A stretch of DNA of 28,326 nucleotides. It comes from Chloroflexota bacterium. Lineage in GTDB: Bacteria > Chloroflexota > UBA6077. The number at the start of each line of letters is the position of its first letter. Positions within the stretch are counted from its first letter, which is position 1. The translations under genes were made by a program, and so were the position numbers. The notes under the pieces are model-generated. The model was not told where the DNA came from, did not search any database, and was given only the letters and a program-made list of their open reading frames with translations. Where the stretch lies: the NCBI GenBank assembly GCA_021845945.1, contig JAJZRD010000027.1, positions 1 through 28,326 of the forward strand, read 5' to 3'. This document shows positions 6,400 to 27,767 of this stretch, piece by piece.

Positions 6400-6423
6400 A
6401 GACGCGATATATCGCGTCTCTAC
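6396..6423 (+). repeat. Perfect 28-bp palindrome between echB and echC
   Basis: The sequence reads GTAGAGACGCGATA and then its exact reverse complement. It contains the echB stop codon (6397-6399) and lies about 25 bases before echC. It is A/T-containing and unlike the flanking codons, so it looks like a dispersed REP- or MITE-like palindrome that landed at the gene end. As RNA it would form a stable hairpin, possibly adjusting expression of the membrane part relative to the hydrophilic part. Confidence 0.7.
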
Positions 6424-6447
6424 GGGATAGGACGGGAGGAGGGAGCG

Positions 6448-8353: not shown

Positions 8354-8373
8354 GGAAGGAAAGGAGCACGCAG

Positions 8374-11340: not shown

Positions 11341-11388
11341 TTGACAGCTGGGCGTAATATGGTAGCGCTACCATGAAAGCGCTACCAT
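11341..11388 (+). promoter_or_regulatory. Promoter and LacI-type operator at the regulator start
   Basis: TTGACA at 11341-11346 is a consensus -35 box. A TAATAT (11355-11360) is close but wrongly spaced for it. A perfect 16-bp palindrome, ATGGTAGCGCTACCAT, lies at 11359-11374. Its right half AGCGCTACCAT is repeated at 11378-11388. The palindrome has the central CG-type symmetry of LacI-family operators and overlaps the start codon (11373), so it should give autorepression. There is no Shine-Dalgarno before the ATG, which suggests a leaderless or nearly leaderless message. Confidence 0.65.
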
Positions 11389-12437
11389 CGATCACCATCG
11401 TCGACGTCGCGAAGAGGGCCGCAGTGGCTCCCATCACCGTCTCCCGTGTGGTCAACAGGAGCGGGCCCGTCAGCGAGGCCACCCGACGCCGCGTCGAGGC
11501 CGCCATCGCGGAGCTCGGCTACGTGCCCAACGGCGTCGCCCGAAGCCTAGCCCGCGCCAGCACGAGAACGATCGCCTTCGTGCAGTCCGACATCGTGAAC
11601 CCCTTCTGGGCGACCGTCCTTCGCGGCATCGAGCAGACCGCCTCCAAGGCAGGGTACAACACGATGCTCTACGACACCCCGGCCGAAGACGAGGACGGCC
11701 GCCACTTCACCGCCCAATACGACCGGGAGCACGCCCGCCGTTTCCGCGACTTGGTGGGCCGCCGCGTCGACGGCGTGATCATCTCCAGCGTCAGGGTGGA
11801 GAGCCACCTTCCCATGCTGGACCGAGCCGGCATTCCCTACGTCTTCGCCGTCCACGAGCCCGACCTTCCGCACCACACCAGCGTGATCGGCGACAACATC
11901 GACGGCGCCCGCCAGGTCACACTCCACCTGGCCCGCGTCGGCCGTAAGAGGATCGCCTTCATCAACGGCCCCACCTGGATCTCCACGGCCGCCGACCGCC
12001 TGCGCGGCTACCGGCGCGGCATCGAGGAGGCGGGCTTGCCTCACGATCCGGCGCTGGTGAGCGAGGGCGACTACACCCCCGACAGCGGCTACCAGCAGAC
12101 GGTATCCCTCGCGAATCGTGGCGTGGAGATCGATGGGATCTTCGCCGCCAACAACTTCCTCGCCTTGGGCGCGCTGGCGGCGCTCCGCGACCGTGGTCTG
12201 CGAGTGCCCGAGGACGTCGGCCTGGCGTGCTTCGACGACATCGAGCTGGCCGCCATGATCGACCCATTTCTCACTGTGGTGGTGGAGCCCGCCCACGAGA
12301 TCGGGGCCGCGGCGGCGCGTCTCCTGCTCGAGACGGTCAAAGGGAAGGGGCAGGCGGACCGGCGCGTCGTTCTTCCCGTCCAGATGGTCGTGCGCCGTTC
12401 GTGCGGATATCGCGGTTCCCGGCCGGAAGGAGCTTGA
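11373..12437 (+). CDS. LacI-family transcriptional regulator
   Basis: 354 residues. The N-terminal helix-turn-helix reads ITIVDVAKRAAVAPITVSRV, followed by the hinge region ELGYVPNGVARSLA. The rest is a periplasmic-binding-protein-like sugar sensor (TIAFVQSDIVNPFWATVLRG; DGVIISS; GDNIDGARQVTLHLARVGRKRIAFINGP in parts). It sits at the head of the sugar cluster in the same direction and most likely represses it until a sugar or its derivative binds. The only matching palindrome I see is at its own start. A different small palindrome, GACCATGGTC (12534-12543), lies before the binding-protein gene. Confidence 0.85.
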   Translation: MKALPSITIVDVAKRAAVAPITVSRVVNRSGPVSEATRRRVEAAIAELGYVPNGVARSLARASTRTIAFVQSDIVNPFWATVLRGIEQTASKAGYNTMLYDTPAEDEDGRHFTAQYDREHARRFRDLVGRRVDGVIISSVRVESHLPMLDRAGIPYVFAVHEPDLPHHTSVIGDNIDGARQVTLHLARVGRKRIAFINGPTWISTAADRLRGYRRGIEEAGLPHDPALVSEGDYTPDSGYQQTVSLANRGVEIDGIFAANNFLALGALAALRDRGLRVPEDVGLACFDDIELAAMIDPFLTVVVEPAHEIGAAAARLLLETVKGKGQADRRVVLPVQMVVRRSCGYRGSRPEGA

Positions 12438-12579
12438 GCGCGTCGAGTGCTGAGCACGGTATTTCAGAGCTCCTCGCCAGTTGATCTCGATGACGGAAAG
12501 AAAGGAGGTGCATCAGCGAGCTGCCCGCTTCCTGACCATGGTCGCATCGTTATTCGCCGTGAAGAGGAGGACGACAGGC

Positions 12580-14010
12580 ATGGATGGCAAGCTGTACGAG
12601 AACCGCATCTCTCGCCGGAGGATGATCAAGGTCTTCGGTACGCTCGGCGCAGGTCTCGCCGCACTCTCGCTCGCCTCCTGCGCCCCGGCCGCCGCACCGA
12701 GCAAGGCGCCCGAGGCGAAAGCTCCGGAGAAGGCCGCCCCGACCACGGCGGCGGAGAGCAAGGCGCCTGCCGCGGGCAAAGCGGCGACGAAGGCCGAAGG
12801 CAAAGTCAACGTCATCTGCTTCGCGGGTGAGGTGGCCACCGCGATCCGAAAGCTCTCCGAGGACTTCATGAAGGAGAACTCGCAGATCCAAGTCAACCTC
12901 GAGGAGGTCGACTTCGCCACCGCCGAGAAGAAGATGTGGCTCGACTTCGCCTCGAAGGGAGGCGCCTACGACACCATCGTCATGCTGAACTTCTGGTTCG
13001 GCCGGGCGATGAAGGAGAGCGACCTCGCCCCGATCGACGGTTACATCAAGAACGACCCGAAGGACCTCAAACTCGACGACTACGCGCCGCCCGTGATCAG
13101 CACCACGCAGCGCGACGGCAAGAACTACGGCTTCCCGGCGCAGGCGGGCGACAAGCTGATCTACTACCGGGCCGACAAGTTCAAGGAGGCAGGGGTTCAG
13201 CCTCCGGCGATCTCCAAGGACACCTGGAACGTCAGCGACTTCCTCGACCTCGCCAAGAAGTTCAACGACCCCAAGAACGAGTTCTACGGCGCCGCGCCGG
13301 GCGGCAAGAGCACCACGGGCCTGACCTGGAAGTGGGCGGAGCACCTCCACTCCGAGGGCCTCGACATGTTCGACAAGGATTTCCGGCCGAAGATCGACGT
13401 GCCGGAATCGGTTCAATACCTCAAGTGGAGCAAGGACCTCTTCAACAACTACTCCAACCCGGGCGCGGCCGCCCAGGCGGACGACGAGGGCACGAACATG
13501 TTCCTGCAGGGCAAGACCGCCCTGCTCGAGCAGTGGGGCGACGTGGGCCCGCGCGTTTTCGATCCCAAGCAGACTTCGCTGAAGCCGGAGCAGGTCGGCT
13601 ACGCGCCCATCCCAAAGGGCATCGGCCCGAAGGCGACCATCGCGCCGTTCTTCGCGATGTGGTCGACCGTGCTCTCCCAGTTCTCGAAGAACCCCGCCGC
13701 GGCGTACGAGTTCATGAGCTGGCTCTCCCTGAAGGACAAGGAGTTCTTCCTGCTGGGCGGCATCCCGTGCCGGAACTCCACCTACAGCGACCCGGAGCTG
13801 CTGAAGAAGTATCCGCACCTCGAGGTGATCGGCAAGACCATGCCCTTCGCGCGGAGCCTGCCGAGCTTCCCGGAGTGGACCGAGGTCTCCAAGTACGTGG
13901 GCGAGGCGAACCAGAAGGTGATCATCGGCGAAATGGAGCCCGAGGCGGCGGCCAAGAAGGCGCAGGAGGACGTCGACAAGCTGATGAAGCAGGCGGGCTA
14001 CTACTCCTAG
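12580..14010 (+). CDS. Sugar ABC transporter substrate-binding lipoprotein
   Basis: 476 residues, extracellular solute-binding protein family 1. The signal sequence carries a twin-arginine motif (SRRRMIKVFG, residues 11-20) and a lipobox LASC with Cys34, so it is probably a Tat-exported, membrane-anchored lipoprotein. An Ala/Lys/Pro linker follows at residues 35-70, then the binding domain. ATG 12580 is chosen because GAGGAGG lies nine bases upstream (12564-12570). An open frame to 12481 adds residues unlike a signal peptide. It begins the transport part of the cluster. The substrate is inferred from neighbours to be a fucosylated oligosaccharide. Confidence 0.87.
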   Translation: MDGKLYENRISRRRMIKVFGTLGAGLAALSLASCAPAAAPSKAPEAKAPEKAAPTTAAESKAPAAGKAATKAEGKVNVICFAGEVATAIRKLSEDFMKENSQIQVNLEEVDFATAEKKMWLDFASKGGAYDTIVMLNFWFGRAMKESDLAPIDGYIKNDPKDLKLDDYAPPVISTTQRDGKNYGFPAQAGDKLIYYRADKFKEAGVQPPAISKDTWNVSDFLDLAKKFNDPKNEFYGAAPGGKSTTGLTWKWAEHLHSEGLDMFDKDFRPKIDVPESVQYLKWSKDLFNNYSNPGAAAQADDEGTNMFLQGKTALLEQWGDVGPRVFDPKQTSLKPEQVGYAPIPKGIGPKATIAPFFAMWSTVLSQFSKNPAAAYEFMSWLSLKDKEFFLLGGIPCRNSTYSDPELLKKYPHLEVIGKTMPFARSLPSFPEWTEVSKYVGEANQKVIIGEMEPEAAAKKAQEDVDKLMKQAGYYS

Positions 14011-14040
14011 GCCGAGGGGCCATTCGGGAGGTCGACGCAG

Positions 14041-14964
14041 ATGAGTACCAGCAGAGTGGCCGGCGGGTTGGCGCGCGAAAGCGCGCCGGCCCGCCGCCGG
14101 CGGGAGCTGCTCCCCTATGTCTTCCTTGCGCCCGCGGTGGTGACGCTTCTGGTCATCACCGTCTACCCGATCTCCTTCGGCCTGGTGATCAGCCTCTTCC
14201 ACTGGGAGCTGACGGCACGGGCGCCGGAGTTCGTGGGTCTCGCCAATTTCGGGCGGGCGTTTACCGAGCCGGAGCTCGTGCACTCCATCAAGCTCACCGT
14301 GGCCTTCACGCTGATCAGCGTGACCTTCTCGTTCCTTCTGGGACTGCTCATCGCGTTGCTGCTCAACCGTCCGTTTCTAGGCAACCGGCAGGCGCGGTCC
14401 CTCATCCTCCTGCCCATGATGATGAGCCCCATCGTGGTCGGCTTCATCTTCCAAATCATGTTTCACGCCGACTACGGGGTCATCAACTACCTCCTCAAGG
14501 ACGTGTTTCATCTCATCGACCGGAAGGTGGTCTGGCTGGCCGAGCCGTATTCGGCGCTCGGCACGCTGATCGTCACCGACGTCTGGTTGGGCATCCCCTT
14601 CGTGGCGCTCGTGCTGCTTGCTGGGCTGCAGTCGCTGGACCAGGAGCCGCTGGACGCCGCCAAGGTCGACGGCGCCTCACGCTGGGGAACGTTCCGCTAC
14701 GTGGTGTGGCCTCTCCTGAAGAACCCGATCATGATCGCGATCACCATCCGCACGATTGTCGCGGCGCGGGTGTTCGACATCATCTACACGCTCACCGAGG
14801 GCGGTCCGGCCGGATTCACCGAGGTGCTCAGCGTGAAGGCGTTTCAGCAGGGCTTGCAGTTCTTCAACGTCGGCTATGGGAGCGCCATGGCGATCCTGCT
14901 GGTCGCCGTCACGTTGGCGCTGGTCGCCTTCTTCTTCAAACTGTTCGACTGGATGACCGGGTGA
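14041..14964 (+). CDS. Sugar ABC transporter permease (UgpA/MalF-like)
   Basis: 307 residues with about six membrane helices. The EAA loop that contacts the ATPase is visible as EPLDAAKVDGASRWGTFRYV (residues about 200-220). It lies 30 bases after the binding protein and is followed by the second permease, the normal CUT1 arrangement. No ATPase gene is present in this window, so a shared MsiK/UgpC-type ATPase elsewhere probably serves it. Confidence 0.87.
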   Translation: MSTSRVAGGLARESAPARRRRELLPYVFLAPAVVTLLVITVYPISFGLVISLFHWELTARAPEFVGLANFGRAFTEPELVHSIKLTVAFTLISVTFSFLLGLLIALLLNRPFLGNRQARSLILLPMMMSPIVVGFIFQIMFHADYGVINYLLKDVFHLIDRKVVWLAEPYSALGTLIVTDVWLGIPFVALVLLAGLQSLDQEPLDAAKVDGASRWGTFRYVVWPLLKNPIMIAITIRTIVAARVFDIIYTLTEGGPAGFTEVLSVKAFQQGLQFFNVGYGSAMAILLVAVTLALVAFFFKLFDWMTG

Positions 14965-14990
14965 GTCCGGACGTCTGGAGGTGCTGAGTC

Positions 14991-15827
14991 ATGTATGGAC
15001 CGAGGTGGCAGCGGGTCATCGAGCGGATCCTCGTTTACCTCGCTGCCTTGCTTACCCTCGTGGTCATGCTCTTTCCGATTTACTGGATCCTGGTGACGTC
15101 CCTCAAGACGCCCGTCGAGACCTTCGCCAGTCCGCCCAAGTGGTTCTCTTCGCCGGTGCTCGATAACTACCAGCAGGCGTTCACCCAGATGCCCCTCTTC
15201 AAGTACCTGGTCAACAGCGCGATCATCTCCCTGATCGAGGCGTCCCTGGTGCTGGTGGTGGCCGCCTTCGCGGCCTACGCGCTGGCCCGCTTCGACTTCT
15301 TCGGGAAGCGGCCGCTGACACTCTGGATACTGGGCAACCAGTTCGTGCCTCCGGTGGTGGTGGTGATCCCGCTGTTCTTCATGTTCTTCCAACTGCATCT
15401 GGTGGGCACCTACCAGGCGATTATCGTGGCGCACGCCGCCTTCCTGCTGCCCTTCTCGATCTGGCTCCTGCGCGGGTTCTTCATGGACGTGCCGAAGGAC
15501 CTGGAGGAGAGCGCGATGGTGGACGGGGCGACCCGGCTGGTGGCCCTCTTCCGCATCGTCGTTCCGCTGGCGGCGCCGGGGATGGCCGCGGTCTGGATCC
15601 TCGCTCTCATCTTCGCCTGGAACGACTTCATGATTCCGCTGGCCCTCGCCAACGAGTTCACCAAGACCCTGCCGCTGGCAGTGGCGGGCTTCCGCACCGA
15701 CCGCGGCATCGAATGGGGGGCGGCCGCCGCCGCCGGGTCCGTGACCGTCTTGCCGGTGCTGCTCTTCGCGGTTGTGGCGCAGCGCCGGATCGTGGCCGGC
15801 CTGACCAGGGGAGCCGTACGCGGCTAA
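14991..15827 (+). CDS. Sugar ABC transporter permease (UgpE/MalG-like)
   Basis: 278 residues with about six membrane helices, and the EAA loop DLEESAMVDGATRLVALFRI in the C-terminal half. It pairs with the permease just upstream to form the heterodimeric channel. GGAGGTGCTGAGTC precedes ATG 14991. It is the last transport gene before the hydrolase genes. Confidence 0.87.
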   Translation: MYGPRWQRVIERILVYLAALLTLVVMLFPIYWILVTSLKTPVETFASPPKWFSSPVLDNYQQAFTQMPLFKYLVNSAIISLIEASLVLVVAAFAAYALARFDFFGKRPLTLWILGNQFVPPVVVVIPLFFMFFQLHLVGTYQAIIVAHAAFLLPFSIWLLRGFFMDVPKDLEESAMVDGATRLVALFRIVVPLAAPGMAAVWILALIFAWNDFMIPLALANEFTKTLPLAVAGFRTDRGIEWGAAAAAGSVTVLPVLLFAVVAQRRIVAGLTRGAVRG

Positions 15828-15876
15828 CCCCCTACACCGACGTTCGAACCCTAATAGGAAGACGGAGCGTGACGAG

Positions 15877-17976
15877 ATGAGCGAGCACACAACGCGTGGG
15901 GCCTGGTTCGGGAAGAGCTTTCGCAAGGTGCACATCCTCTACGTGTCGCCGGCATGGGCGAGGGACCGAGGAGTCAAGTTCGATGCCGAGGAGACGGCCG
16001 CCAACCTAGCCGGTGCCGGTGTGGATTGCGTCGAGCTCTACTGCAAGGACCATCACGGGGTCTGCTACTACCCCTCTTCCGACGGTCTCCAGTACCCGCG
16101 GGACGTCGTGGGGGAGCTGTGCGAGGCCGTCCGCCAGCGCGGAATGCGCTTCATCGCCTACTTCTCCGTGTGCTTCGACGCCTACGCGCTGGGCGTGCAC
16201 CCAGAGTGGCGCGCCACCGGACAGGATGGCAGCGCGCGATGGCAGGCCCCCTTCTTCTGGTCCTGTCTGCGCTCGCCCTACCGCGACTACGCGCTGCGAC
16301 AGATCCGGGAGCTCGTCGGCCGCTATCGTATCGACGGCCTGTGGCTCGACATCGTGCCCTTCGCCTGGGACGAGCCGCAGGAGGTGTGGATGCAGACCAC
16401 GCTGCCGGCCGCCTGCTACTGCCCGTCCTGTCAGGCGGGCCTTCCGGCGTGGACGGGACGCCCGCTGCCCCGGCCGGACGAGGAGTGGACACCCGAGCTG
16501 CGGCGGGCGGCCTACGAGTACTCGCTGGGCGGTGTGCGGGAGTTCCTCGAGGACGCGCGCGACATCTTGGATGCGAAGCGGCCCGACGCGCTCATGACGT
16601 ACAACGGCGCGAACGGGCCCGCCGACCCGCTTCGCCTCGGCGACCTCGTCTCCATCGAGGGGCACCCCCCGCACTTCCTTCGGGAGAGCTTCATCGGGAG
16701 CTGGGCGAGAGGGACCGGCAAGCCCTTCGAGATCCTCACCGCGGGCGGTCTCCCCGCATCGCTGTCCGGCTGGAACGGCTTCGACCAGAAGCCGCCGCAG
16801 CTGCTCCGGGTGGAGGCGGCGATCGGCGCCGCCAACGGCGGCAGCGCGGTCGTCGGCCAGGCGCCCTACCCCAACGGAGAGACCCCACCCGGCCACTACA
16901 CGGGGTTCGCCCGAGCGTTCGAGCCGCTCAAATCGGTCGAGGCGACCGGGCTGCTTCACCCGCGGAGCGTTGGTGAGGTGGGCATCGTGCTGGCCACCAA
17001 GCCCGACCGAGCCCCGCGGGGATGGACGGCTATGCTCGGCGGAGCGGAGACCGCCTACCGGGCGCTCCGCAATGCGCACCTCCAGTGCGAGGTGCTTCCT
17101 CGCGCCGAGGATCTGGAGCGGTACAGGCTCGTGGTCCTCTCGGACCAGATGGCGCTCGACGATGCGGAGATAGAGACGATCCGCGGCTACGTGGCCGGAG
17201 GTGGTGCAGTGCTGGCAGCTGGCCTGACCGGCGTGCTCGATGGTGACGGCCAGCCGCGCGCCGAGGGCCCGCTCGACGGCGTCCTGGGCATCGAAACCCT
17301 CGGCCCGACGGGCTGGCCGCATACCTACCTGCTGCTGGACGACAGTCCGCTGCGCGACGGGATCACCGACATCCCGATCCTGAGCAACCGGCCCTCGCTC
17401 GGCGCCCGGGCCGGCCGCGCCGAGCAGCTCGGCCGGATCCTCCCACCGGAAACCGGACGGACGGATAGCACCACCATCCTCTGGGGCAGTCCCCCGCCGA
17501 ACTTCGACGCCCCCCTCGCGGGCGCGACGCTCAACCGGTTCGAGGACGGGACGGCGCTCTTCCTCGCGGCCTCGATGGCCTCTCAGGTCTCTGCCCGAGC
17601 CTGGGATACCCGGGGACTCGAGGCGGCCTGGCTGCAACGCATCATGCAGAACGCGGCCGGCCTTCTCCTCTCCGACCCGGTGCTCTCGTCGGACGCACCG
17701 CCGGGCGTGTATCTCACGCTCAACCGCCACGATGGCTGCCTGGCGTTGCACGTCATCGACGTCCGGCTGGTGGAGCCGGATCACATTGCCTTCTCGACGC
17801 AGGCCGCGCCGCCCGGGTGGAGGGTCCGCCTGAACGAGGGACGGACCGGCTGCCTCAAGGGAGTTCGAACGCTCGACGGACGCCGAGTGCCACTGGAGAA
17901 GTCCGAGGGCCACTACGAGGTCCGGCTGCCCACGCACGACTTCCACACGGTGCTGATCTTCGACACTGACGCTTGA
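15877..17976 (+). CDS. Putative GHL6-like glycoside hydrolase, copy 1
   Basis: 699 residues without a signal peptide, so it acts in the cytoplasm. The N-terminal part (about 18-350) is a TIM-barrel of the GHL6/alpha-L-fucosidase-like type: HILYVSP, GVDCVELYCKDHHG, then RIDGLWLDIVPF, where Asp158 is the best nucleophile candidate, and SIEGHPPHF with a possible acid/base Glu. A Cys-x-Cys-x-x-Cys motif (Cys180, 182, 185) follows the nucleophile strand. The middle part (about 390-480) resembles the flavodoxin-like trimerisation domain of GH42 enzymes (YRLVVLSDQMALDDAEI). Its neighbour is a paralogue. Alpha-L-fucosidase activity (GH151-like) is inferred from fold features and context. Confidence 0.65.
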   Translation: MSEHTTRGAWFGKSFRKVHILYVSPAWARDRGVKFDAEETAANLAGAGVDCVELYCKDHHGVCYYPSSDGLQYPRDVVGELCEAVRQRGMRFIAYFSVCFDAYALGVHPEWRATGQDGSARWQAPFFWSCLRSPYRDYALRQIRELVGRYRIDGLWLDIVPFAWDEPQEVWMQTTLPAACYCPSCQAGLPAWTGRPLPRPDEEWTPELRRAAYEYSLGGVREFLEDARDILDAKRPDALMTYNGANGPADPLRLGDLVSIEGHPPHFLRESFIGSWARGTGKPFEILTAGGLPASLSGWNGFDQKPPQLLRVEAAIGAANGGSAVVGQAPYPNGETPPGHYTGFARAFEPLKSVEATGLLHPRSVGEVGIVLATKPDRAPRGWTAMLGGAETAYRALRNAHLQCEVLPRAEDLERYRLVVLSDQMALDDAEIETIRGYVAGGGAVLAAGLTGVLDGDGQPRAEGPLDGVLGIETLGPTGWPHTYLLLDDSPLRDGITDIPILSNRPSLGARAGRAEQLGRILPPETGRTDSTTILWGSPPPNFDAPLAGATLNRFEDGTALFLAASMASQVSARAWDTRGLEAAWLQRIMQNAAGLLLSDPVLSSDAPPGVYLTLNRHDGCLALHVIDVRLVEPDHIAFSTQAAPPGWRVRLNEGRTGCLKGVRTLDGRRVPLEKSEGHYEVRLPTHDFHTVLIFDTDA

Positions 17977-18005
17977 TATTCGTCTAACCGCGGAGGGAGG
18001 GGACA

Positions 18006-20039
18006 TTGCACTGGTACGACCAAACGCTCCGGAAGGTGCACATCCTGTACGTGTCGCCGGAGTGGTCCAAGCGACAAGGCGATCGGTTCTCCGCCAAGGA
18101 GTACGTCGAGGGCCTGAAGACGGCCGGAGTAGACTGCGTTCAGGTCTACGGCAAGGATCACCACGGCTACTGCTACTACAAGGCGCGCCAGGGCCGGCCC
18201 TACCCGAGAGACGTGTTCGCCGAGCTGGTGCCCGCAGTTCATGAAGCTGACATGCGCTTCGTCGGGTACTTCAGCGTCGGGCTCGACGCCTGGGCGTTGG
18301 GCATGTACCCAGAGTGGGCCGCGATGGACCGCGACGGGCAGCCCTTCGTGCGGCGGCACTTCTTCCGCGCCTGCCTGAACTCGGGATATCGGAAATTCGC
18401 ACTCGAACAGTTCGAGGACCTGGCCTCGGGATACGAGCTCGACGGCGCCTGGCTTGACATCATCCCCCTCGCCTACCCCGCACCGGAGGTCGGCTACGCC
18501 GTCCAGCGACCCGTGCCCTGCCACTGCCCCGCCTGCTGCAGGCTCTACCGCGACCGGTTCGGCCGCGACCTGCCTCTCGAACCAACCGCCGAGGAGAAGC
18601 GTCAGATCTACTTCTTCATGATCGACGGCGTCCGGAGCCTGCTCGAGGAGTTCAAGGCCGTCCTTCTGAAGCACCGGCCGGAGGCCATGCTCAGCTACAA
18701 CTTCGCGGGCGCCTGGGCCGACCCGGTGGACACCGCCACCGTCGTCTCCATCGAGGGGCACGCTCCCGAGTACCGGCGGCAGAGCCTGGTGAGCCGCTGG
18801 GGCAGGACGAGCGGCAAGCCCTTCGAGATCCTCACCCCCGGAGCGCTCCCCAACGGCTTCGGCGGCTGGGACGGCTGGGACGGAAAGCCGGCCGAGGTCC
18901 TGCGCATCGAGTGCGGCATCGCCGCCGCCCACGGGGGCAACGCGGTCTTCGGGGTCGCGCCCTACACCGACGGCAGCGTCGACAAGGGACAGTGGCAGCT
19001 CATCGGCCGCGCGTTCGACGATCTGGCGAAGGTAGAGGAGCACTGCATCAACCCGAAGAGCGGGGCCGAGATCGGCCTGGTGCTGGCCGCCAAGCCGCGC
19101 ACCGTGCCCGAGCCCTGGGTTGAACAGGTGGCCGAGGTCGAGGTGTACCACGAAGCCCTGCTAGACATGCAGGCGCAGTTCGATGTCCTGCACTCGGCGG
19201 AGGGGCTGGACCGGTACCGGCTGGTGATCGTCCCGGACCAGCCGAGCCTCACCGCGGCGGAGGGTTCCGCCCTCCGTGAATACGTCCGGAAGGGAGGGCG
19301 GCTCATCGCCGCCGGCCGGACCTCCCTGTGGGACGAGGAGGGCAAGCCGCGGGCGGACTTCGCCCTCGCCGACGTGCTGGGCGTCCGCTACCGGGAGACC
19401 CTGCAGTACCCGTTCAACTTCCTGCGGGTCGATGACGCCGAGGGTTCCGGGAGGGACATCCCGGACATCCCCATCTTGTCGCTGCATCAAGGCATTCGGG
19501 TGGAGCTGAACGGAGCCGAGCAGCTCGGACGGCTGTTCCCGCCCGAGACGGCCCGAAACTGGTCGACCACCGTGCTGTGGGGTACGCCCGCGCCGGATAT
19601 GGATCGCGTGGCGCCCGGCATCACCCGGAACCGGTTCGGGGATGGGGTCGCGATTTACGTCGCGCTGCCGCTGGCGGCGAAGAACCTCGAATCGGTCTGG
19701 GCGAAGTTGCTGATCCAGAACCTCACCCGGTCGCTGCTCCCCGACCCGATCGTCGACGCGCGGGTGCCGGGCGGGGTGGAGGTCGTGCTCAACCGCCAGG
19801 AGGGGCGTTGGGTGCTTCATCTGGTGGATACCAGGTGGGGCGATCCGATTCATCCGGCGGCCGCCCACCCGTCCACCGTCCTCCACAACGTCGAGATCTC
19901 GTTGGATGTGGGGCGCCTCGGCGACATCAGTAAGGCGCGGATCGCGGGAGGCGGCGCGCTCGATCTCCGCACCAACGGCTGCCGGTTCGAGCTGACGGTG
20001 CCGGAGCTTGGCATCCATACCGTTTTAGTGCTCGAATAG
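18006..20039 (+). CDS. Putative GHL6-like glycoside hydrolase, copy 2
   Basis: 677 residues, a tandem paralogue of the preceding gene with the same order of motifs: HILYVSPEW, GVDCVQVYGKDHHG, YELDGAWLDIIPL with candidate nucleophile Asp151, Cys172/174/177 as Cys-x-Cys-x-x-Cys, SIEGHAPEY, GKPFEILT and the GH42M-like middle domain. The start is a TTG at 18006 with GGAGGGAGGGG just upstream. The gap to copy 1 is 29 bases. Differences in the barrel loops after the nucleophile suggest a different linkage or aglycone preference. It is cytoplasmic, as no signal peptide is seen. Confidence 0.65.
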   Translation: MHWYDQTLRKVHILYVSPEWSKRQGDRFSAKEYVEGLKTAGVDCVQVYGKDHHGYCYYKARQGRPYPRDVFAELVPAVHEADMRFVGYFSVGLDAWALGMYPEWAAMDRDGQPFVRRHFFRACLNSGYRKFALEQFEDLASGYELDGAWLDIIPLAYPAPEVGYAVQRPVPCHCPACCRLYRDRFGRDLPLEPTAEEKRQIYFFMIDGVRSLLEEFKAVLLKHRPEAMLSYNFAGAWADPVDTATVVSIEGHAPEYRRQSLVSRWGRTSGKPFEILTPGALPNGFGGWDGWDGKPAEVLRIECGIAAAHGGNAVFGVAPYTDGSVDKGQWQLIGRAFDDLAKVEEHCINPKSGAEIGLVLAAKPRTVPEPWVEQVAEVEVYHEALLDMQAQFDVLHSAEGLDRYRLVIVPDQPSLTAAEGSALREYVRKGGRLIAAGRTSLWDEEGKPRADFALADVLGVRYRETLQYPFNFLRVDDAEGSGRDIPDIPILSLHQGIRVELNGAEQLGRLFPPETARNWSTTVLWGTPAPDMDRVAPGITRNRFGDGVAIYVALPLAAKNLESVWAKLLIQNLTRSLLPDPIVDARVPGGVEVVLNRQEGRWVLHLVDTRWGDPIHPAAAHPSTVLHNVEISLDVGRLGDISKARIAGGGALDLRTNGCRFELTVPELGIHTVLVLE

Positions 20040-20084
20040 CACTCGGGCGCGGAGCATCAGATCAGACGAATGGAGCGTGTAGGG

Positions 20085-20936
20085 ATGGAGCACCGCTTTG
20101 GATTTCGGCTCGTCGACGCGCATCACCACCTCTGGGAGGTGGGCCGGTCCGATCTCCCCTGGATCACACCCGCGATTCAGTCGCTGGCACGGACCTTCAG
20201 CACCACGGACCTGGCCGGCGTCTTCGACGGCTCCGGGGTCGAGCGAGGGGTGCTGGTGCAGTCCGGCATGAGCGACGCGGACAACGCGCTGATCGACGAA
20301 TGGTCACGCGAGACCGATCACATCGCCGGCGTGGTCGCGTGGGCCGACATCGCGGGCAACCGGCTCGACGGCCAGCTCGACGCGCTTTGCCGGAACCCGA
20401 AGGTGGTGGGCATTCGCCTGCAGGCAGAAGATAGCCCCGACGATGGGCTGTTCGACCACCCGGAGGTCGTGCGGGGACTGCGGCGGCTGGCCGATCGCGG
20501 GCTCACCTACGACTTCCTGGTGCGGGTCCCCCAACTGCGCTCCGTGCCCAAGGTCTACGGGCAGGTGCCGAACCTCAAGGGCGTCATCGACCACATGGCC
20601 AAACCCGACATCGCCAATGGACAGGGCCTCAAGGAGTGGGAGGACGCCCTCCGCGCCGCGGCGGCCGTCCCTGGCCTCCACTGCAAGCTCTCGGGGCAGT
20701 TGGCGCTCGCGGGGCCCAATCCCACGGCCGAGAAGCTGAAGCCCTACGTCCAGCTCGCCATCGAGATCTTCGGCGTCGACCGCGTCATGTGGGGCAGCGA
20801 CTGGCCGGTGGCGACGCTGGCCGCCGACTATGCCACGACGCTGACGACGATGCGCGAGGCCATGGGAGACCTGTCGTCGGCGGACGAGGAGAAGATCTTC
20901 CGGACGAACGCCATGAGGTTCTACGGTCTCTCCTAA
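20085..20936 (+). CDS. Amidohydrolase, probable L-fuconolactonase
   Basis: 283 residues of the amidohydrolase-2 family (COG3618-like), which hydrolyses sugar lactones. Metal-binding features are visible: VDAHHHLWE near the N-terminus, VIDHMAKPDI in the middle and MWGSDWPVATL with its Asp near the C-terminus. I prefer ATG 20085, nine bases after a GGAG. ATG 20070 is an alternative adding five residues. In the cluster it would open L-fucono-1,5-lactone formed by a dehydrogenase. A lactonase for another deoxy sugar cannot be excluded. Confidence 0.72.
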   Translation: MEHRFGFRLVDAHHHLWEVGRSDLPWITPAIQSLARTFSTTDLAGVFDGSGVERGVLVQSGMSDADNALIDEWSRETDHIAGVVAWADIAGNRLDGQLDALCRNPKVVGIRLQAEDSPDDGLFDHPEVVRGLRRLADRGLTYDFLVRVPQLRSVPKVYGQVPNLKGVIDHMAKPDIANGQGLKEWEDALRAAAAVPGLHCKLSGQLALAGPNPTAEKLKPYVQLAIEIFGVDRVMWGSDWPVATLAADYATTLTTMREAMGDLSSADEEKIFRTNAMRFYGLS

Positions 20937-20978
20937 CCCCCACTTGGCGATCATCCACGATCGAGGAGGTGGCGCACC

Positions 20979-22880
20979 GTGCCGTATGGGTACACCGGAC
21001 GGGTGGCCAGGGTCGACCTCACCACTGGACGAGTCTGGGAGGAGCGTCCCGACGATCTCACCTATCGCTACACGATGGGTGGGGCCTGCCTCGCGGCCGG
21101 CTACCTGCTTCGAGAGCTGGCTCCCGAGGTCGACGCCCTCGCTCCGGGGAATCTGCTGATCTTCGCCACCGGGATTCCCACCGGGGCGCCCGCCCCCGGC
21201 TTTGACCGGCACACCGTGATGGCCAAATCCCCACTCAGCGGGGGGATAGCGGAGTCCCAGTCGGGCGGGTTCTGGGGAGCCGAGCTCAAGTTCGCCGGCT
21301 TCGACGCGCTCATCGTCCAAGGCCGGGCCGAACGCCCGATGTACCTCTGGGTGACCGACGGCAAGATTGAGGTGCGAGACGCGTCGGGGGCGTGGGGCCG
21401 GGAGGTCGCCGAAGCGCAGCGATGGCTGCTGGCGGATGCCGGCGACGAGCAGGCGCGTGTCGCCGCCATCGGGCCGGCGGGCGAGCGGCTCGTGCGCTAC
21501 GCCTGCATCGTGAATGACGGGCTGTGGGTGAACGGACGCACCGGCGTCGGCGCCGTGATGGGCTCGAAGCGGCTCAAGGCCGTTCTGGTGCGGGGAAGCG
21601 GATCCGTCGAGGTCGCCGATGCGGAGACGGTGTCCCGCATCAGCGCCTACGTCGATGAGCACATCCTCGAGAACCCCGTGAACCGGGTGACCTACGAGCA
21701 GGGGATGGCCGGCGCGGTCCACAACCTCTCCTCGCTCATCGCGGCGAAGAACCTGCGGATCACCGGGTGGGAGGGCACGGCGGCCATTGACGGCCAGCGT
21801 CTCATGGAGCGTTGGGGCGGGGAACGCGTCCCCGGCCACGCCAGTCCCGTGGCGGGCAAGAAGCGCTTGCGCGGGACGGAGGCCATTGGGGCTAACCCCT
21901 TCTACGGCGAGCCGGAGATGGAGTCGCTCACCGGCCTGGGCTGCCAGCCGCTCGTGGCCGACCCGGACGTCATGGTGCGCGCCCACGCCTACTGCAACGC
22001 GCAGGGCATGGACGTGACCTCGGCCGGCTTCGTCGTCGCCTTCGCCATGGAGTGCTTCGAATGCGGCATGCTGACGCGCGAGCAGGCCGGCGACCTCGAC
22101 CTTCGCTGGGGCAACGGCGAGGCCCTCATGCGCATGCTCGAGCTCATCGCGCGGCGGGAGGGGATCGGTGATCTCCTCGCCGAGGGGGTGAAGCGGGCCT
22201 CGGAAAAGCTCGGCGCCGGGGCCGAGGCCGTGGCCATGCACAGCAAGGGCGTCGAGATGATCCCGCACGACCCCCGCGTGAAGGCCATGTTGGGGGTGGC
22301 CTGCGCGGTCAGCCCCATCGGACCCGACATCCTCGCGGTCGAGCACGACACGGACTTCGACTTCGCGGCCCCGCAGCTCTACCTCGACCAGGTCACCGCG
22401 CTCGGCATTCACGAGCGGCTCGACCCCCGCAGCCTGAGCCCCGCGAAGATGCGCATGCTCGCCCGCCTGCAGCCGGTCTTCAGTTTCATGGACGCTCTCT
22501 GCGTGGACGCCTTCGCCTTCGCGCCGGTCCGCTTCCTGCCCTTTGGGAGAATGGTGGAGCTGATCTCCGCCATCGCCGGCTGGGAGACCAGCCTCTACGA
22601 GCTGGAGCAGCTCGGCAAGCGGCGCCTCGCCATGCTCCGGATCTTCAATCTGCGCCACGGACTCAGCGCCGCGGACGACCGGCTTCCAGACCGGGTCTTC
22701 GGGCCGCTCGCGACTCCCGCCGGCCCCGTTCCGGGCCTCGACCGCGATGAATTCGAGCGCGCGGTGAAGACGTATTACGCGCTCATGGGATGGGACGAGC
22801 GGGGCATCCCCACGGATGCCACCCTTACCGACCTGAACCTCGAGTGGCTCATCGAGGTCGTGCAGGAGGCCCGACGCTGA
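20979..22880 (+). CDS. Aldehyde:ferredoxin oxidoreductase homologue lacking the Fe-S cluster ligands
   Basis: 633 residues, full length for the tungsten/molybdopterin AOR family. N-terminal pterin-binding segments are typical: SGGFWGAELKFAGFDALIVQ (about 95-114), GRTGVGAVMGSKRLKAVLV (186-204), GMDVTSAGFVVAFAMECFE and GDLLAEGVKRA. At the place of the CxxCxxxC motif that holds the [4Fe-4S] cluster, it reads GHASPVAG (286-293), so the three cysteines are Gly286, Ser289 and Gly293. The fourth ligand position, five residues after the conserved Asp505, is Asp510. A cysteine at 508 is out of register. The pterin part looks intact. It probably binds the W/Mo cofactor but cannot pass electrons to ferredoxin in the known way. 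GTG start with AGGAGGT eight bases upstream. Confidence 0.82.
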   Translation: MPYGYTGRVARVDLTTGRVWEERPDDLTYRYTMGGACLAAGYLLRELAPEVDALAPGNLLIFATGIPTGAPAPGFDRHTVMAKSPLSGGIAESQSGGFWGAELKFAGFDALIVQGRAERPMYLWVTDGKIEVRDASGAWGREVAEAQRWLLADAGDEQARVAAIGPAGERLVRYACIVNDGLWVNGRTGVGAVMGSKRLKAVLVRGSGSVEVADAETVSRISAYVDEHILENPVNRVTYEQGMAGAVHNLSSLIAAKNLRITGWEGTAAIDGQRLMERWGGERVPGHASPVAGKKRLRGTEAIGANPFYGEPEMESLTGLGCQPLVADPDVMVRAHAYCNAQGMDVTSAGFVVAFAMECFECGMLTREQAGDLDLRWGNGEALMRMLELIARREGIGDLLAEGVKRASEKLGAGAEAVAMHSKGVEMIPHDPRVKAMLGVACAVSPIGPDILAVEHDTDFDFAAPQLYLDQVTALGIHERLDPRSLSPAKMRMLARLQPVFSFMDALCVDAFAFAPVRFLPFGRMVELISAIAGWETSLYELEQLGKRRLAMLRIFNLRHGLSAADDRLPDRVFGPLATPAGPVPGLDRDEFERAVKTYYALMGWDERGIPTDATLTDLNLEWLIEVVQEARR

Positions 22881-22925
22881 CTTTCACGCGTGATCGACGC
22901 GATCAACATCAACGAGGAGGACACC

Positions 22926-23861
22926 GTGCTCGCTCGCAGGAAGCTAGGCCGAACGGGACATGAGAGCTCGGTCGTCGCCTTGGGAACGGCGGCGTTCTGG
23001 GACGTGAGCCAGGAGACGGCCGACCGCGCCATTCAGCAGGCGCTCGATGCCGGAGTCAACCACTTCGACGTGGCGCCCGCATACGGACAGGCGGAGCAGC
23101 GCATCGCTCCCTGGATGCCCAAGATTCGAGACCGGATCTTCTTGGGCTGCAAGACGACCATGCGCACGCGGGACGAGGCGAAGGCGGAGCTGCACCGTTC
23201 GCTGGAGCGTCTCGGCGTGGAACGCCTCGACCTGTACCAGCTCCACGGCGTGAACAACCTCGAGGTGCTCGACCAGTGCACGCGGCCGGGCGGCGCGCTG
23301 GAGGCGTTCGTCGAGGCGAGGAACGAGGGCCTCATCCGGTTCATCGGCATCACCGGACACACCCATCGGGCGCCGGCCGCTCACCTCGAGGGCCTGCGCC
23401 GGTTCGACTTCGACACGGTGATGTTCCCCCTCAACTTCGTGCTCCACAGCATCCCCGAGTACCGGCGTGACGCGGAGGTGCTGCTCGACGCCTGCGCCGA
23501 GCGCGACGTCGGCGTCCACGTCATCAAGTCCATCGCCAAGAACCCGCGGCCGGACGAGAACCACTCCCACACCACCTGGTATCAGCCCTTCGACACCCCC
23601 GAGGAGATCGAACGGGCGGTGTCTTTCGTACTGTCGCAGCGAGTCACCACCCTCTGCAGCGTGGGTGACGTGACGCTGCTGCCCCTCGTTCTGGAGGCGG
23701 CGCAGCGGGCGAGCGCGCTCAGCGACAGGGACCAAGAGGAGTTGGTGGCCGGAGCCGAGGGCAGGTATCACTCCCCGTTCGTGGGCGCTGGGCGTGATTC
23801 CCCTGCGCCACTGAGCCCTGCGGCAGCTCCGCCCCCGACCAAGGAAAGGAGATCACCATGA
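22926..23861 (+). CDS. Aldo/keto reductase
   Basis: 311 residues. The catalytic tetrad is present: Asp48 and Tyr53 in FDVAPAYG, Lys76 in GCKTTM and His107 in LYQLHGVN. The (beta/alpha)8 pattern runs to about 270. A proline-rich tail (about 285-311) is beyond the usual end. I chose GTG 22926 because GAGGAGG lies five bases upstream. A frame to 22890 adds residues not seen in the family. The end overlaps the fucosidase start (ATGA, 23858-23861). It may oxidise L-fucose or reduce lactaldehyde to propanediol. The sequence alone does not tell which. Confidence 0.82.
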   Translation: MLARRKLGRTGHESSVVALGTAAFWDVSQETADRAIQQALDAGVNHFDVAPAYGQAEQRIAPWMPKIRDRIFLGCKTTMRTRDEAKAELHRSLERLGVERLDLYQLHGVNNLEVLDQCTRPGGALEAFVEARNEGLIRFIGITGHTHRAPAAHLEGLRRFDFDTVMFPLNFVLHSIPEYRRDAEVLLDACAERDVGVHVIKSIAKNPRPDENHSHTTWYQPFDTPEEIERAVSFVLSQRVTTLCSVGDVTLLPLVLEAAQRASALSDRDQEELVAGAEGRYHSPFVGAGRDSPAPLSPAAAPPPTKERRSP

Positions 23862-25150
23862 CCCTGCAGCCAGCCCCCACCCCGGGCGACACGACCTGGT
23901 TCGTCCACGATCGCTTCGGGCTTTTCATCCACTGGGGGATCTACTCCGTGGCCGCCCGTCACGAGTGGGTGAAGAGCCGCGAACTGATCTCGGACGAGGA
24001 TTACCAGAGGTACTTCGATCACTTCGACCCGGACCTCTACGACCCAGCCGAGTGGGCGCACGCGGCGAAGCGGGCCGGCATGAAGTACGCCGTCATCACC
24101 TCGAAGCACCACGACGGCTTCTGCCTCTGGGACAGCAAGCTCACCGACTACAAAGCCACCAACACCCCCGCGGGGCGGGACCTCATCGCGGCATGGGTTG
24201 AGGCGTTCCGAGCCGAGGGACTGAGAATCGGCTTCTACCACTCGCTGATCGACTGGCATCATCCCGAGTTCCCGCTGGACGGCCTGCACCCGCAGCGGGA
24301 GGACCTCGCGTTCCGCGAGCGCGCCAAGAACCGCGACATCCGGCAGTACGTGGAGTATCTGCACGGCCAGGTGCGCGAGCTTCTTACCGGCTACGGGAAG
24401 ATCGACGTCATGTGGTTCGACTTCTCGTACTCGGATCGCGACTGGGGGTGGGCGCGGGGAAAGGGAAAGGAGGACTGGCAGTCGGAGCGGCTCATCGAGA
24501 TGGTGAGAGAGCTCCAGCCGGGCATCCTCATCAACAATCGCACAGAGTTCCCGCAGGACTTCGTGACCCCGGAGCAGTATCAGCCCGCGGGCTGGTTCCA
24601 GGTGGACGGCAAGCCGGTCATCTGGGAGGCCTGCCAGACGCTCAACGGGAGTTGGGGCTACGACCGCGACAACCTGGACTGGAAGCCGCCCGTCATGCTG
24701 ATCCGCATGCTGATCGACTCGGTCTCCAAGGGCGGCAACCTCCTGCTCAACGTCGGTCCCACCGCGCGCGGCGAGTTCGATTCCCGTGCGCTGGACGCGC
24801 AGGACACCATCGGCGAATGGATGCGCCTCCACGAACGCTCCATCCGCGGCGCGACGCAGAGCGACTTCACCGCGCCTCCCGACTGCCGGCTGACGCAGCG
24901 CGGCGACCGTCTCTACCTGCACCTCTTCGCTTGGCCCTTCAAGCACGTTCACCTTGAGGGTCTGGCGGGCAAGGTGGAGTACGCGCAGTTCCTACACGAC
25001 GCCTCGGAGGTGAGGATGGTGGCCGGAGGAGGCGCGGGCTTCGGCAACACGGTGCCGAAGGGTGTTAGTCCCGATGCGTTGACCCTCAACCTGCCCGTAC
25101 ACAAGCCGGACATCGCGGTGCCGGTGATCGAGCTTTTCCTGTGCAAATGA
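23858..25150 (+). CDS. Alpha-L-fucosidase, GH29
   Basis: 430 residues, retaining GH29 enzyme that removes alpha-L-fucose from glycans. Substrate-pocket motifs are FGLFIHWGIYS (His25), TSKHHDGFCLWDS (His84 and His85), FYHSLIDWHHPEF and KIDVMWFDFSYS, with Asp188 as the nucleophile. GGNLLLNVGPTARGEF closes the barrel, and a short beta domain follows. No signal peptide is present, so it acts on imported oligosaccharides. It is coupled to the aldo/keto reductase by overlapping stop and start, with AAGGAG nearby. This is the gene that points most firmly to fucose. Confidence 0.87.
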   Translation: MTLQPAPTPGDTTWFVHDRFGLFIHWGIYSVAARHEWVKSRELISDEDYQRYFDHFDPDLYDPAEWAHAAKRAGMKYAVITSKHHDGFCLWDSKLTDYKATNTPAGRDLIAAWVEAFRAEGLRIGFYHSLIDWHHPEFPLDGLHPQREDLAFRERAKNRDIRQYVEYLHGQVRELLTGYGKIDVMWFDFSYSDRDWGWARGKGKEDWQSERLIEMVRELQPGILINNRTEFPQDFVTPEQYQPAGWFQVDGKPVIWEACQTLNGSWGYDRDNLDWKPPVMLIRMLIDSVSKGGNLLLNVGPTARGEFDSRALDAQDTIGEWMRLHERSIRGATQSDFTAPPDCRLTQRGDRLYLHLFAWPFKHVHLEGLAGKVEYAQFLHDASEVRMVAGGGAGFGNTVPKGVSPDALTLNLPVHKPDIAVPVIELFLCK

Positions 25151-25199
25151 GGCGCCTGACAAGACGCATTCCCCTAAACACACAGAAGGAGATCGAGCA

Positions 25200-25985
25200 G
25201 TGGCGGATCGCTTCAAAGATGGGGTCGTCATCGTCACCGGCGGCAGCAAGGGCATCGGCGATGGGTGCGCCCGGGTGTTCACCGCGGAGGGCGGACACGT
25301 GGTCATCTGCGCGCGCGGCGCCGAGGACGGCGAGCGCGTGGCGAAAGAGCTGAACGACAAGGGACCCGGGACCTGCGCCTTCATGCAGGCCGACGTGAGC
25401 AAGCCGGCCGACATCAAGCGCGTCGTCGACGACACGGTCGCGCGGTACGGCCGCCTCGACTGCATGATCAACAACGCGGGCTGGCATCCGCCGGCCATCG
25501 ACATCGAGGAGATGCCCATCGAGGACTTCGAGGCGCTGCTGCGGCTCAATCTCACCAGCACCTACGCCGGCTGCAAGTTTGCCTTGCCCCATCTGCTCAA
25601 GACGAAGGGCAGCATCGTGAATATGTCGTCCATGGTGGGCATCCTGGGGCAGGCGAAGGCGACCGCCTACTGCGCCACCAAGGCGGGACAGATCGGCATC
25701 ACCAAGGCGCTCGCCGTCGACTATGCCCCCAAGGGCGTGAGGGTGAACGCCGTGCTGCCGGCGGGCGTCGACACGCCATTGATGCGCGACTGGGCGTCGA
25801 CGTTGGACGACCCCGAGGCGGCGCTGCGCTGGCAGGGCAACATGCATCTGCTTGGCCGGCTCGCCACCATCGAGGAGATCGGCCGCGTCTGCCTCTTCCT
25901 GGCCAGCGAGGATGCCTCCTTCGTCACCGGCCAGGCGATTCAGGTGGAGGGCGGCGCCAGCCTCGACTACTCGCCTGCCTGCTGA
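25200..25985 (+). CDS. Short-chain dehydrogenase, probable L-fucose pathway enzyme
   Basis: 261 residues of the classical SDR family. Cofactor motif VTGGSKGIG (residues 12-20), NNAG (91-94), Ser143/144 in NMSSMVG and the Tyr157-x3-Lys161 pair in AYCATKAG are all present. The GTG start follows AAGGAG. Its place after the fucosidase suggests L-fucose 1-dehydrogenase, feeding the lactonase, or 2-keto-3-deoxy-fuconate dehydrogenase later in the same route. No fuconate dehydratase is in the window. It is the last gene of the cluster. A 6-bp hairpin (25994-25999 with 26005-26010) without a T-run lies just behind it. Confidence 0.8.
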   Translation: MADRFKDGVVIVTGGSKGIGDGCARVFTAEGGHVVICARGAEDGERVAKELNDKGPGTCAFMQADVSKPADIKRVVDDTVARYGRLDCMINNAGWHPPAIDIEEMPIEDFEALLRLNLTSTYAGCKFALPHLLKTKGSIVNMSSMVGILGQAKATAYCATKAGQIGITKALAVDYAPKGVRVNAVLPAGVDTPLMRDWASTLDDPEAALRWQGNMHLLGRLATIEEIGRVCLFLASEDASFVTGQAIQVEGGASLDYSPAC

Positions 25986-26266: not shown

Positions 26267-27322
26267 ATGCAGGTGGTGCCAGAGGCTTTTGCCGAGGGCG
26301 AGAGAAAGGGCGGACGCTATCCCATCAAAGGGCCGACGGGCCGCTCTTTTGAACCCGCTCCGAACAAGCATTGGCGCGACCGCAGAGAGGATCTGCTTGG
26401 ACTGATCCAGGACGGTCGGGTTTACTTTGGTGAAGATGGAGCTTCGCAACCCAACCTCAAGCGATTCCTCAGTGAAGTTCAGCAGGGCGTGAAAACGAGG
26501 ACTATCTGGGACCACACTGATGTCGGAAGCAACGACTCGGCCAAACGAGAACTGAGGGTTCTGTTCCCTGACCAAGAAGAAGTGCCCTTCAGCTATCCGA
26601 AACCGAGCACCCTGTTGGCCCAAATGCTCAAGCTTTCTACGCAAGCAAACGAGGGGGATGTGATCCTCGATTTCTTTGCAGGCTCCTGCGCCTCAGCTCA
26701 GGCGGTGTTGAGTCTGAATCGGGAAGACGGTGGCAGTCGACGCTTCATTATGGTGCAGTTGCCCGCCTTGCCGGTGGCGGTAGACTCAGCTGCCGGCAAG
26801 GCGGGCTACCGAACCATAGCCGACGTCGGCAAGGAGCGAATCCGACGGGTGATCGCCCGGTTGGAGGAGGAGCGCCGGGGTCAGCTGGATCTGGCGGTCC
26901 GGGAGAGTCCCGAGGACCTGGGTTTCAAAGTCTTCAAGCTGGCCCCCTCCAACTACAGGCCCTGGACGGACCTGCCGGTGGAGAGCACGAAGAGCTACCT
27001 GGAGCAGTTGGCGATGTTCTCGGACCCGTTGGTCGAGGGTTGGGTGGCCGGGAACGTGATCTACGAGGTCGCTCTCAAAGAGGGTTTCGGACTGAACTGC
27101 CGCATCGAGAAGGTGGAGGGTGTCGACAGCAACGTCTTCGTCAGAGTCCTCGATCCGGATAGGGATCAGTCCTTTTACGTTTGCCTGGACGAAGTCGTGC
27201 GGCTGGAGGGGCTGAGGTCGCTCGGTCTGGCCGAGGAGGACCTGTTCGTGTGTCGCGACTCCGCCCTGGACGACGAGACGGCTGCCAACCTGGCTCTCCA
27301 ATGCCGATTGAAGACGATATGA
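26267..27322 (+). pseudogene. mod: Type III methyltransferase (mod), 5'-truncated
   Basis: 351 residues equal to the C-terminal half of type III Mod proteins: RYPIKGPTGRSF, DGRVYFGEDG, the RFLSEVQQGV and WDHTDVGSNDSAKREL region, YPKPSTLLAQML, and the AdoMet-binding motif DVILDFFAGSCAS (131-143; usually FAGSGT). Beta-class enzymes carry the catalytic DPPY box well before this part, and it is missing. The same frame has a stop near 26175 and the DNA upstream does not encode it, so the gene has lost roughly its first half. Without DPPY it cannot methylate alone. It is followed closely by hicB. Confidence 0.72.
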
Positions 27323-27360
27323 GGGGGAAACGGGCCGAGAGGAAGGCTTAGGAGCAGGTC

Positions 27361-27564
27361 ATGAAGATCAGAGTTGTGGTCCACGAAGCGGAAGAGGGCG
27401 GGTACTGGGCGGAGGTCCCGGCCATCCCCGGCTGCGCCACGGAAGGCGAGACCCTCGAGGAGTTGCTGAAGAACCTTCACGAAGCGATCGAGGGATGCCT
27501 GTCGGCGGAGGTCGAGCCGCCCAAGACTACGGGGAAAGACAGGGTGATGGATATCGCCGTATGA
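27361..27564 (+). CDS. hicB: HicB-family antitoxin
   Basis: 67 residues. The segment KIRVVVHEAEEGGYWAEVPA followed by IPGCATEGETLEELLKNLHE is the typical HicB partial RNase H-like fold. AGGAG lies before ATG 27361. The stop overlaps the start of hicA (ATGA, 27561-27564), so antitoxin and toxin are made together, antitoxin first. It probably neutralises HicA. No clear C-terminal DNA-binding domain is present in this short form. Confidence 0.85.
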   Translation: MKIRVVVHEAEEGGYWAEVPAIPGCATEGETLEELLKNLHEAIEGCLSAEVEPPKTTGKDRVMDIAV

Positions 27565-27767
27565 AGTCGATGTCCGGCCGTCAACTGGCCAAGCTCGTAG
27601 AACGTCATGGATGGGTTCTACTGAGGATCCAGGGTAGTCACCACGTTTACGGGAAGCCAGGTAGCATCGTCCGGCTCTCCATCCCGATTCACGGCGACAA
27701 ACCCCTCAAGATCGGCCTGCTCACGCACCTGCTGAGCATGGCCGATCTGCCGGAAGACGCGCGGTGA
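27561..27767 (+). CDS. hicA: HicA-family toxin (mRNA interferase)
   Basis: 68 residues with the dsRBD-like HicA fold. The conserved catalytic histidine is in RIQGSHHVY (His27/28), and the family motif GHxPLKxGLLxxIL appears as IHGDKPLKIGLLTHLL. HicA enzymes cleave mRNA. I chose ATG 27561, which overlaps hicB. An open frame to 27495 lies inside hicB. The frame is intact although both flanking restriction-modification genes are broken. Confidence 0.85.
   Translation: MKSMSGRQLAKLVERHGWVLLRIQGSHHVYGKPGSIVRLSIPIHGDKPLKIGLLTHLLSMADLPEDAR

Follow-up and report, generated by a model that had tools for sequence, protein, structure and literature searches.

The sections of a 2025 review considered here state that in all tungstoenzymes at least one Fe4S4 cluster lies close to the tungsten cofactor, and they name Thr243, Glu313, Tyr427 and His448 as residues proposed to act in aldehyde oxidation (PMC12096430). 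A 2026 classification, in the part cited here, reports that cluster ligands vary very little in a family of over 4,000, of whose 92 clades only 5 have a defined role (PMC13328260). According to the same review sections, WOR4 of P. furiosus has lost one cluster ligand (Cys to Gly) and has no known aldehyde activity, yet retains an Fe3S4 cluster, and WOR5/ASOR (6x1o) has an Asp among its ligand positions, yet keeps three Cys and a bound Fe4S4 cluster; YdhV and BamB are described there with an altered second shell (PMC12096430). The cluster cysteines of YdhV are kept. In the open-licence literature searched, we found no aldehyde:ferredoxin oxidoreductase (AOR) without a cluster, no loss of all four ligands, and no AOR in fucose or lactaldehyde use.

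Here we describe a gene, intact and located in a sugar operon of fucose type, whose product has a confidently predicted AOR fold but none of the four [4Fe-4S] ligands. Such a natural member makes the metal uptake of the AOR fold, and its use of the metal without an Fe-S relay, directly testable. The gene lies in a stretch of 28,326 nucleotides (the window; Table 1), and its 633 codons contain no internal stop.

Table 1. Features of the window that bear on the AOR-like gene and its surroundings
Feature	Position	Strand	Basis or remark
LacI-family regulator	11373..12437	+	Pfam
Sugar-type solute-binding protein	12481..14010	+	Pfam SBP_bac_1
ABC permease 1	14041..14964	+	Pfam
ABC permease 2	14991..15827	+	Pfam, NCBIfam
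GHL6-type glycosidase, weak alpha-L-fucosidase match	15877..17976	+	Pfam
Second GHL6-type glycosidase	18006..20039	+	Pfam
Amidohydrolase, fuconolactonase-like (below curated cut-off)	20070..20936	+	Pfam, NCBIfam
Shine-Dalgarno-like AGGAGG of AOR-like gene	20964..20969	+	Read from DNA; ends 9 nt before GTG start
AOR-like protein, 633 aa, all four [4Fe-4S] ligands replaced	20979..22880	+	
Codon 243, Met at Thr243 position	21705..21707	+	Alignment
Codons 286-293, GHASPVAG; ligand positions 1-3 are Gly, Ser, Gly	21834..21857	+	Alignment
Codon 451, Ile at P. furiosus AOR His448 position	22329..22331	+	Alignment
Codon 510, Asp at fourth ligand position	22506..22508	+	Alignment
Aldo/keto reductase	22890..23861	+	Pfam
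Alpha-L-fucosidase family protein	23858..25150	+	Pfam Alpha_L_fucos, 290 bits
SDR oxidoreductase, fucose-dehydrogenase-like (below curated cut-off)	25200..25985	+	Pfam, NCBIfam

Alignment places Gly286, Ser289, Gly293 and Asp510 at C288, C291, C295 and C494 of P. furiosus AOR, such that the [4Fe-4S] ligand set, CxxCxxxC plus a fourth Cys, reads G, S, G and D. Translation and alignment agree with the original prediction on the coordinates, the frame and all four residues. Its view that the loss occurred by substitution, and not by deletion or frameshift, also stands. The motif aligns at the same place in several alignments. With all four cysteines replaced, electron export by the known, ferredoxin-linked route is impossible, as had been proposed.

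We compared the protein with the best 120 of 7,329 matches, themselves drawn from the 8,000 best candidates. Ligand positions 1-3 are Cys in 118 of these homologues, a gap in one (P0032) and G/S/G in one (P0002); the fourth is Cys in all 119 homologues besides P0002, where it is Asp. The query deviates at 11 of 100 near-invariant columns, defined by conservation in 95% or more of 119 homologues: the four ligand positions, the start codon and six more. The probability that 10 random departures over the 99 non-start columns include all four ligands is ∼6×10−5. Repeating the count with each of the 119 homologues left out in turn gives a median of 1 departure (mean 2.1, maximum 14); at least 11 are reached by three homologues, and the sister protein P0004 has 7.

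P0002 (from another source, ‘lgn’, on a 14,751-base contig) is 99% identical to the query and carries the same four ligand-site residues, and in a 51-row tree the ligand loss has one origin. A sequencing or assembly artefact, or a misaligned motif, might be suspected from the occurrence of the pattern in one lineage only. This is very improbable, since P0002 repeats the four residues while differing from the query at four others and at the start, and since the placement of the motif is stable across alignments.

Four cysteines elsewhere near the pterin site, which would have undone the predicted ligand loss, were sought and rejected: none of the query's eight Cys falls within the 276-306 loop. 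C37, C176, C339, C359 and C508 are frequent among cluster-bearing homologues, both sisters share C442, and C322 is found in 3 of 119 homologues. The query's extra CxxC (C359, C362) is broken in P0002, where residue 362 is Arg. An extra Cys ligand to the metal, as in the YdhV/BamB group, finds no support in the comparison with YdhV alone, where the metal-binding Cys336 of that protein aligns to Leu325 of the query in a gapped stretch, and Cys322 is three residues off.

A wider subfamily with the G/S/G ligand pattern was likewise rejected. GxxSxxxG had been put forward as a subfamily signature, and within the searches made it is found only in the query and P0002. A search scored on residues 262-312 alone, which is limited by word choice, gave P0002 as the sole match among 3 candidates. 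A profile built from the query, P0003 and P0004 added 14 previously unseen proteins (best 120 of 6,015), all 14 with four Cys. Among 107 AOR-like ORFs in 103 loci, a count in which L027-L034 duplicate genes of L001-L003 and L005-L009 and are not independent, none lacks all four Cys and 98 have four. The others comprise four with CxxCxxxH or similar, one with Ser at the third position and four gapped at one or more positions. More distant cluster-free AORs may lie beyond the best 120 of 7,329 and the best 120 of 6,015. A lack of homologues with the pattern had been named as a sign of a one-off error or a dead gene; the pattern is indeed narrowly distributed, but P0002 and the conservation described below oppose both sequencing error and a long-dead gene.

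In some distant AOR-family ORFs, single ligand positions differ. His replaces the third cluster Cys in the alignment of L017, L018, L019 and L044 (CxxCxxxH), with a Cys directly after this His in L044, and L045 has Ser at the third position. These five are possible cases of altered Fe-S sites, judging from their alignments.

The original prediction also held that the reading frame is maintained, and the gene bears this out: it has no internal stop, a ribosome-binding site, neighbor-like codon use (GC3 of 0.89, against 0.86-0.92 in neighboring genes) and substitutions that avoid conserved columns. At positions where P0003 and P0004 agree, the query changes at 8 of 89 columns with at least 95% conservation, 23 of 94 at 80-95%, 40 of 131 at 50-80% and 32 of 78 below 50%, and at 4 of 4 ligand columns. 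The low rate at the most conserved columns relative to the least conserved argues that, over the branch as a whole, selection was kept outside the ligand set. With the start and the four ligands set aside, 89 of 95 near-invariant residues are retained. Nonetheless, the branch of the query is long (0.66, versus 0.27 and 0.44 for the sisters), and at 213 columns with at least 80% conservation, defined from rows that included the sisters and excluded the query, it has 29 private changes, compared with 4 in P0003 and 15 in P0004. Such a branch would fit either a functional shift or a partly relaxed constraint.

These observations bear on the reading that the protein is a pseudoenzyme in which the metal cofactor is unbound, serving a structural, binding or regulatory role, or that the gene is redundant and in a first stage of loss. 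The long branch, the many private changes at conserved columns and the restriction of the pattern to one lineage in the searches made favor it. Its strongest point is by analogy: in NarG, according to the portion of the report cited, neither cofactor is inserted once the cysteines of the cluster near the pterin are changed (PMC10609526). This reading is nonetheless rather unlikely, because the 633-codon frame is open in two assemblies, the substitutions still avoid conserved columns, the near-invariant residues outside the start and the ligands are largely intact, and the ribosome-binding site and codon use resemble those of the neighbors.

The protein is a member of the AOR/WOR family by descent, domains and fold. 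Both domains are present (AFOR_N at 232 bits and AFOR_C at 280 bits, with cut-offs of 29.8 and 27), and the AOR fold is confidently predicted. In models without cofactor, the block pLDDT of residues 281-300 is 93 and 94 for the query and 97 and 96 for P0003 as a control. Residues of the W/Mo bispterin-binding motifs are largely retained in the alignment, and binding itself is predicted. The first motif reads NAQGMD and the second DALCVD, each ending in Asp, and the ends align to Asp343 and Cys494 of 1aor, which presumably have a role in pterin binding. That both motifs end in Asp is perhaps a small hint against a pseudoenzyme.

In the second shell, Thr243, Glu313, Tyr427 and His448 correspond to Met, Glu, His and Ile, and thus the query does not carry the set of aldehyde-oxidizing AORs sensu stricto. 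His in place of Tyr427 is the norm of the subfamily (117 of 119 homologues). Relative to AOR/WOR structures (1aor, 9mqx, 9g7j), the query differs by replacement of the four cluster Cys and two of the four second-shell residues, with Tyr427 additionally changed to His. It resembles WOR4 in ligand loss but lacks all four ligands rather than one, and it shares an Asp with WOR5/ASOR, where this residue stands at the first position (WADYGCPVNC) and not at the fourth. It is like YdhV and BamB in its altered second shell, unlike YdhV in its cysteines, and scores 201 bits against a curated 868 for the YdhV-type equivalog NF007354 (PRK09849). The sisters P0003 and P0004, at 55-57% identity, have the same kind of altered second shell (IEHI and IDHT, respectively) and, unlike the query, keep four Cys. 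Because both the cluster ligands and the second shell depart from those of the characterized enzymes, the protein should not be named an aldehyde:ferredoxin oxidoreductase.

Across P0001-P0121, His448 is present in 92 proteins and absent from 29. A 41-row tree that includes 18 of these 29 and seven loci unites all 25 rows without His448 in one group (support 100/99), inside which the query joins P0003 and P0004 (100/98); the remaining 23 rows of the group retain four Cys. L109 has a long branch (1.3) and an unsure position. As the tree omits AORs that lack both His448 and the EHD loop (L017, L018, L019, L021, L044), a single loss is claimed for the sampled subfamily only. There, the 23 other rows keep four Cys, so the loss of His448 preceded that of the cluster, which took place in a single lineage. 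Thus, as judged from alignments and trees, the query descends from cluster-bearing enzymes of a group already without the catalytic His448.

Sugar-transport or fucose genes were matched by blast probes within 10 kb of the AOR at 7 of 8 His448-less loci and at 2 of 29 His448 loci, a count in which 4 of the 11 probes came from L003 and L006, themselves counted loci, four loci (L003, L006, L007, L014) represent one lineage, several loci are short, and the 29 His448 loci were chosen by hand among those with better scores instead of being sampled at random. Restricting the probes to the seven derived from the window gives 2 of 8 and 2 of 29. L015, whose AOR has His448 but no EHD loop and which shows permease and fucose-isomerase-like matches, was excluded. 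At the only miss, L109, a mandelate-racemase-family gene adjoins the AOR, and a GH99-like gene is present. The cluster of L105, drawn from the phylum of L002 (titled Chloroflexi), contains a binding protein, two permeases, the AOR, a lactonase-like gene, two homologues of the window glycosidases and an SDR with 59% identity to that of the window; its AOR (also seen as L084) has four Cys and Asn in place of Glu313. In L003, L006, L007 and L014, of Actinomycetota type, the AOR is accompanied by URO-D genes and by L-fucose isomerase, which in L003 and L014 is a fragment at the locus end, and a ribose-type transporter is also present in L003, L006 and L007. L108, taken from the phylum of L005 (titled Clostridiales), places the AOR alongside a ribose-type transporter, an FGGY kinase and a DeoC/LacD aldolase.

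The specialized subfamily that had been suggested therefore exists in a broader form, as a His448-less group mostly in sugar operons, whereas its other sampled members keep the cluster cysteines. This group is a tangible starting point in the search for a new WOR function.

The window operon reads LacI regulator, binding protein, two permeases, two GHL6-type glycosidases, lactonase-like amidohydrolase, AOR-like gene, aldo/keto reductase, alpha-L-fucosidase family protein and SDR. The first glycosidase belongs to what we take to be family GH151. For the aldo/keto reductase, a start at 22926, 3′ of GAGGAGG, is likelier than the listed one. The predicted sugar setting between lactonase and aldo/keto reductase holds, but the fucose identity of the lactonase (178 bits against a curated NCBIfam fuconolactonase cut-off of 400) and of the SDR (207 bits against 300 for fucose dehydrogenase) falls below these thresholds, so that the label ‘fucose’ derives mainly from the fucosidase-type hydrolases. 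The scanned genes of window positions 11373-25985 and of L105 yielded neither a recognized fuconate dehydratase, of enolase or IlvD type, nor a matching aldolase, and the scanned operon genes include no recognized Fe-S or flavin partner, partner subunit or dedicated acceptor.

Our best explanation, to which we assign a probability of about 0.38 as a whole, is that the protein binds a W/Mo-bispterin and has an intermediate of fucose breakdown as its substrate, with no net export of electrons. The tungsto- (or molybdo-) bispterin would still be bound, and the substrate might be an aldose, an aldonate or L-lactaldehyde from L-fucose breakdown. The metal would take up and return electrons or hydride within one turnover, as in an epimerase, dismutase or dehydratase type of reaction. 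A cycle of this kind would make the Fe-S relay dispensable and permit its loss, and Asp510 may bond to the pterin, taking over from the lost cluster ligand. This explanation is favored by the joint change of the four ligands against 8 of 89 other columns with at least 95% conservation, by the altered second shell, by the lack of a recognized Fe-S or flavin partner among the scanned genes, by the presence of related AORs in fucose or other sugar operons, and by the alignment of the motif ends to Asp343 and Cys494 of 1aor. Against it, the long branch and the private changes would also fit relaxed constraint, and the failed cofactor insertion in NarG weighs on the same side. Altered second-shell chemistry would not in itself be enough to dispense with the cluster, because sisters with the same shell keep it. 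The more specific proposal, a cluster-free tungsto-bispterin enzyme of redox-neutral sugar chemistry that would epimerize, dismutate or dehydrate an L-fucose intermediate and perhaps fill the fuconate dehydratase step, for which the scanned genes of the window and of L105 contain no recognized candidate, is doubtful. If true, the protein would be the first in the AOR family to do without electron export, and would have arisen within a sugar-operon clade with a rebuilt active site.

The cofactor-free pseudoenzyme is a close rival of this best guess, as is direct hand-off, in which a fucose-pathway aldehyde or aldose oxidoreductase would pass electrons from its reduced metal-pterin to an external carrier docked over the vacated cluster site. 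A parallel is the direct electron hand-off proposed for DMSO-reductase-type enzymes without a pterin-near cluster. The AOR fold and Glu313 are retained, the cluster in the sisters points to an ancestor that was redox-active in the usual way, the hydrogenase-like cluster of the window with its Fer4 protein makes ferredoxin-type carriers likely to be present, and the small residues Gly, Ser and Gly could keep the site open. Ferredoxin docking near the cluster is a published prediction, in the part of the source cited (PMC12727526). Direct hand-off is still only a tentative possibility, given that Thr243 and His448, both proposed aldehyde-oxidation residues, are Met and Ile, that the scanned operon genes contain no recognized dedicated acceptor, and that the path to a docked ferredoxin would be longer without a cluster.

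The membrane hydrogenase-like cluster of the window (3611-8742, +) comprises an antiporter-type subunit, NuoH-, NuoB- and NuoD-like proteins and the Fer4 protein. Its large-subunit ORF has CGIC and a C-terminal CFSC, presumably as in group 4 [NiFe] hydrogenases. On the 3′ side of the sugar operon (26267-28272, +) are DNA methylase-like, HicA-toxin-like and helicase/ResIII-like ORFs. The His448-less loci L003, L006, L007, L008, L014, L105, L108 and L109 encode AORs with four cluster Cys, mostly in sugar operons, and the gene types found there include fucose isomerase, fuconolactonase-like, FGGY kinase with aldolase and, at L109, an enolase-superfamily gene. URO-D/MtaA-like genes, of corrinoid methyltransferase type, recur beside or near the AORs of L003, L006, L007, L014 and L105.
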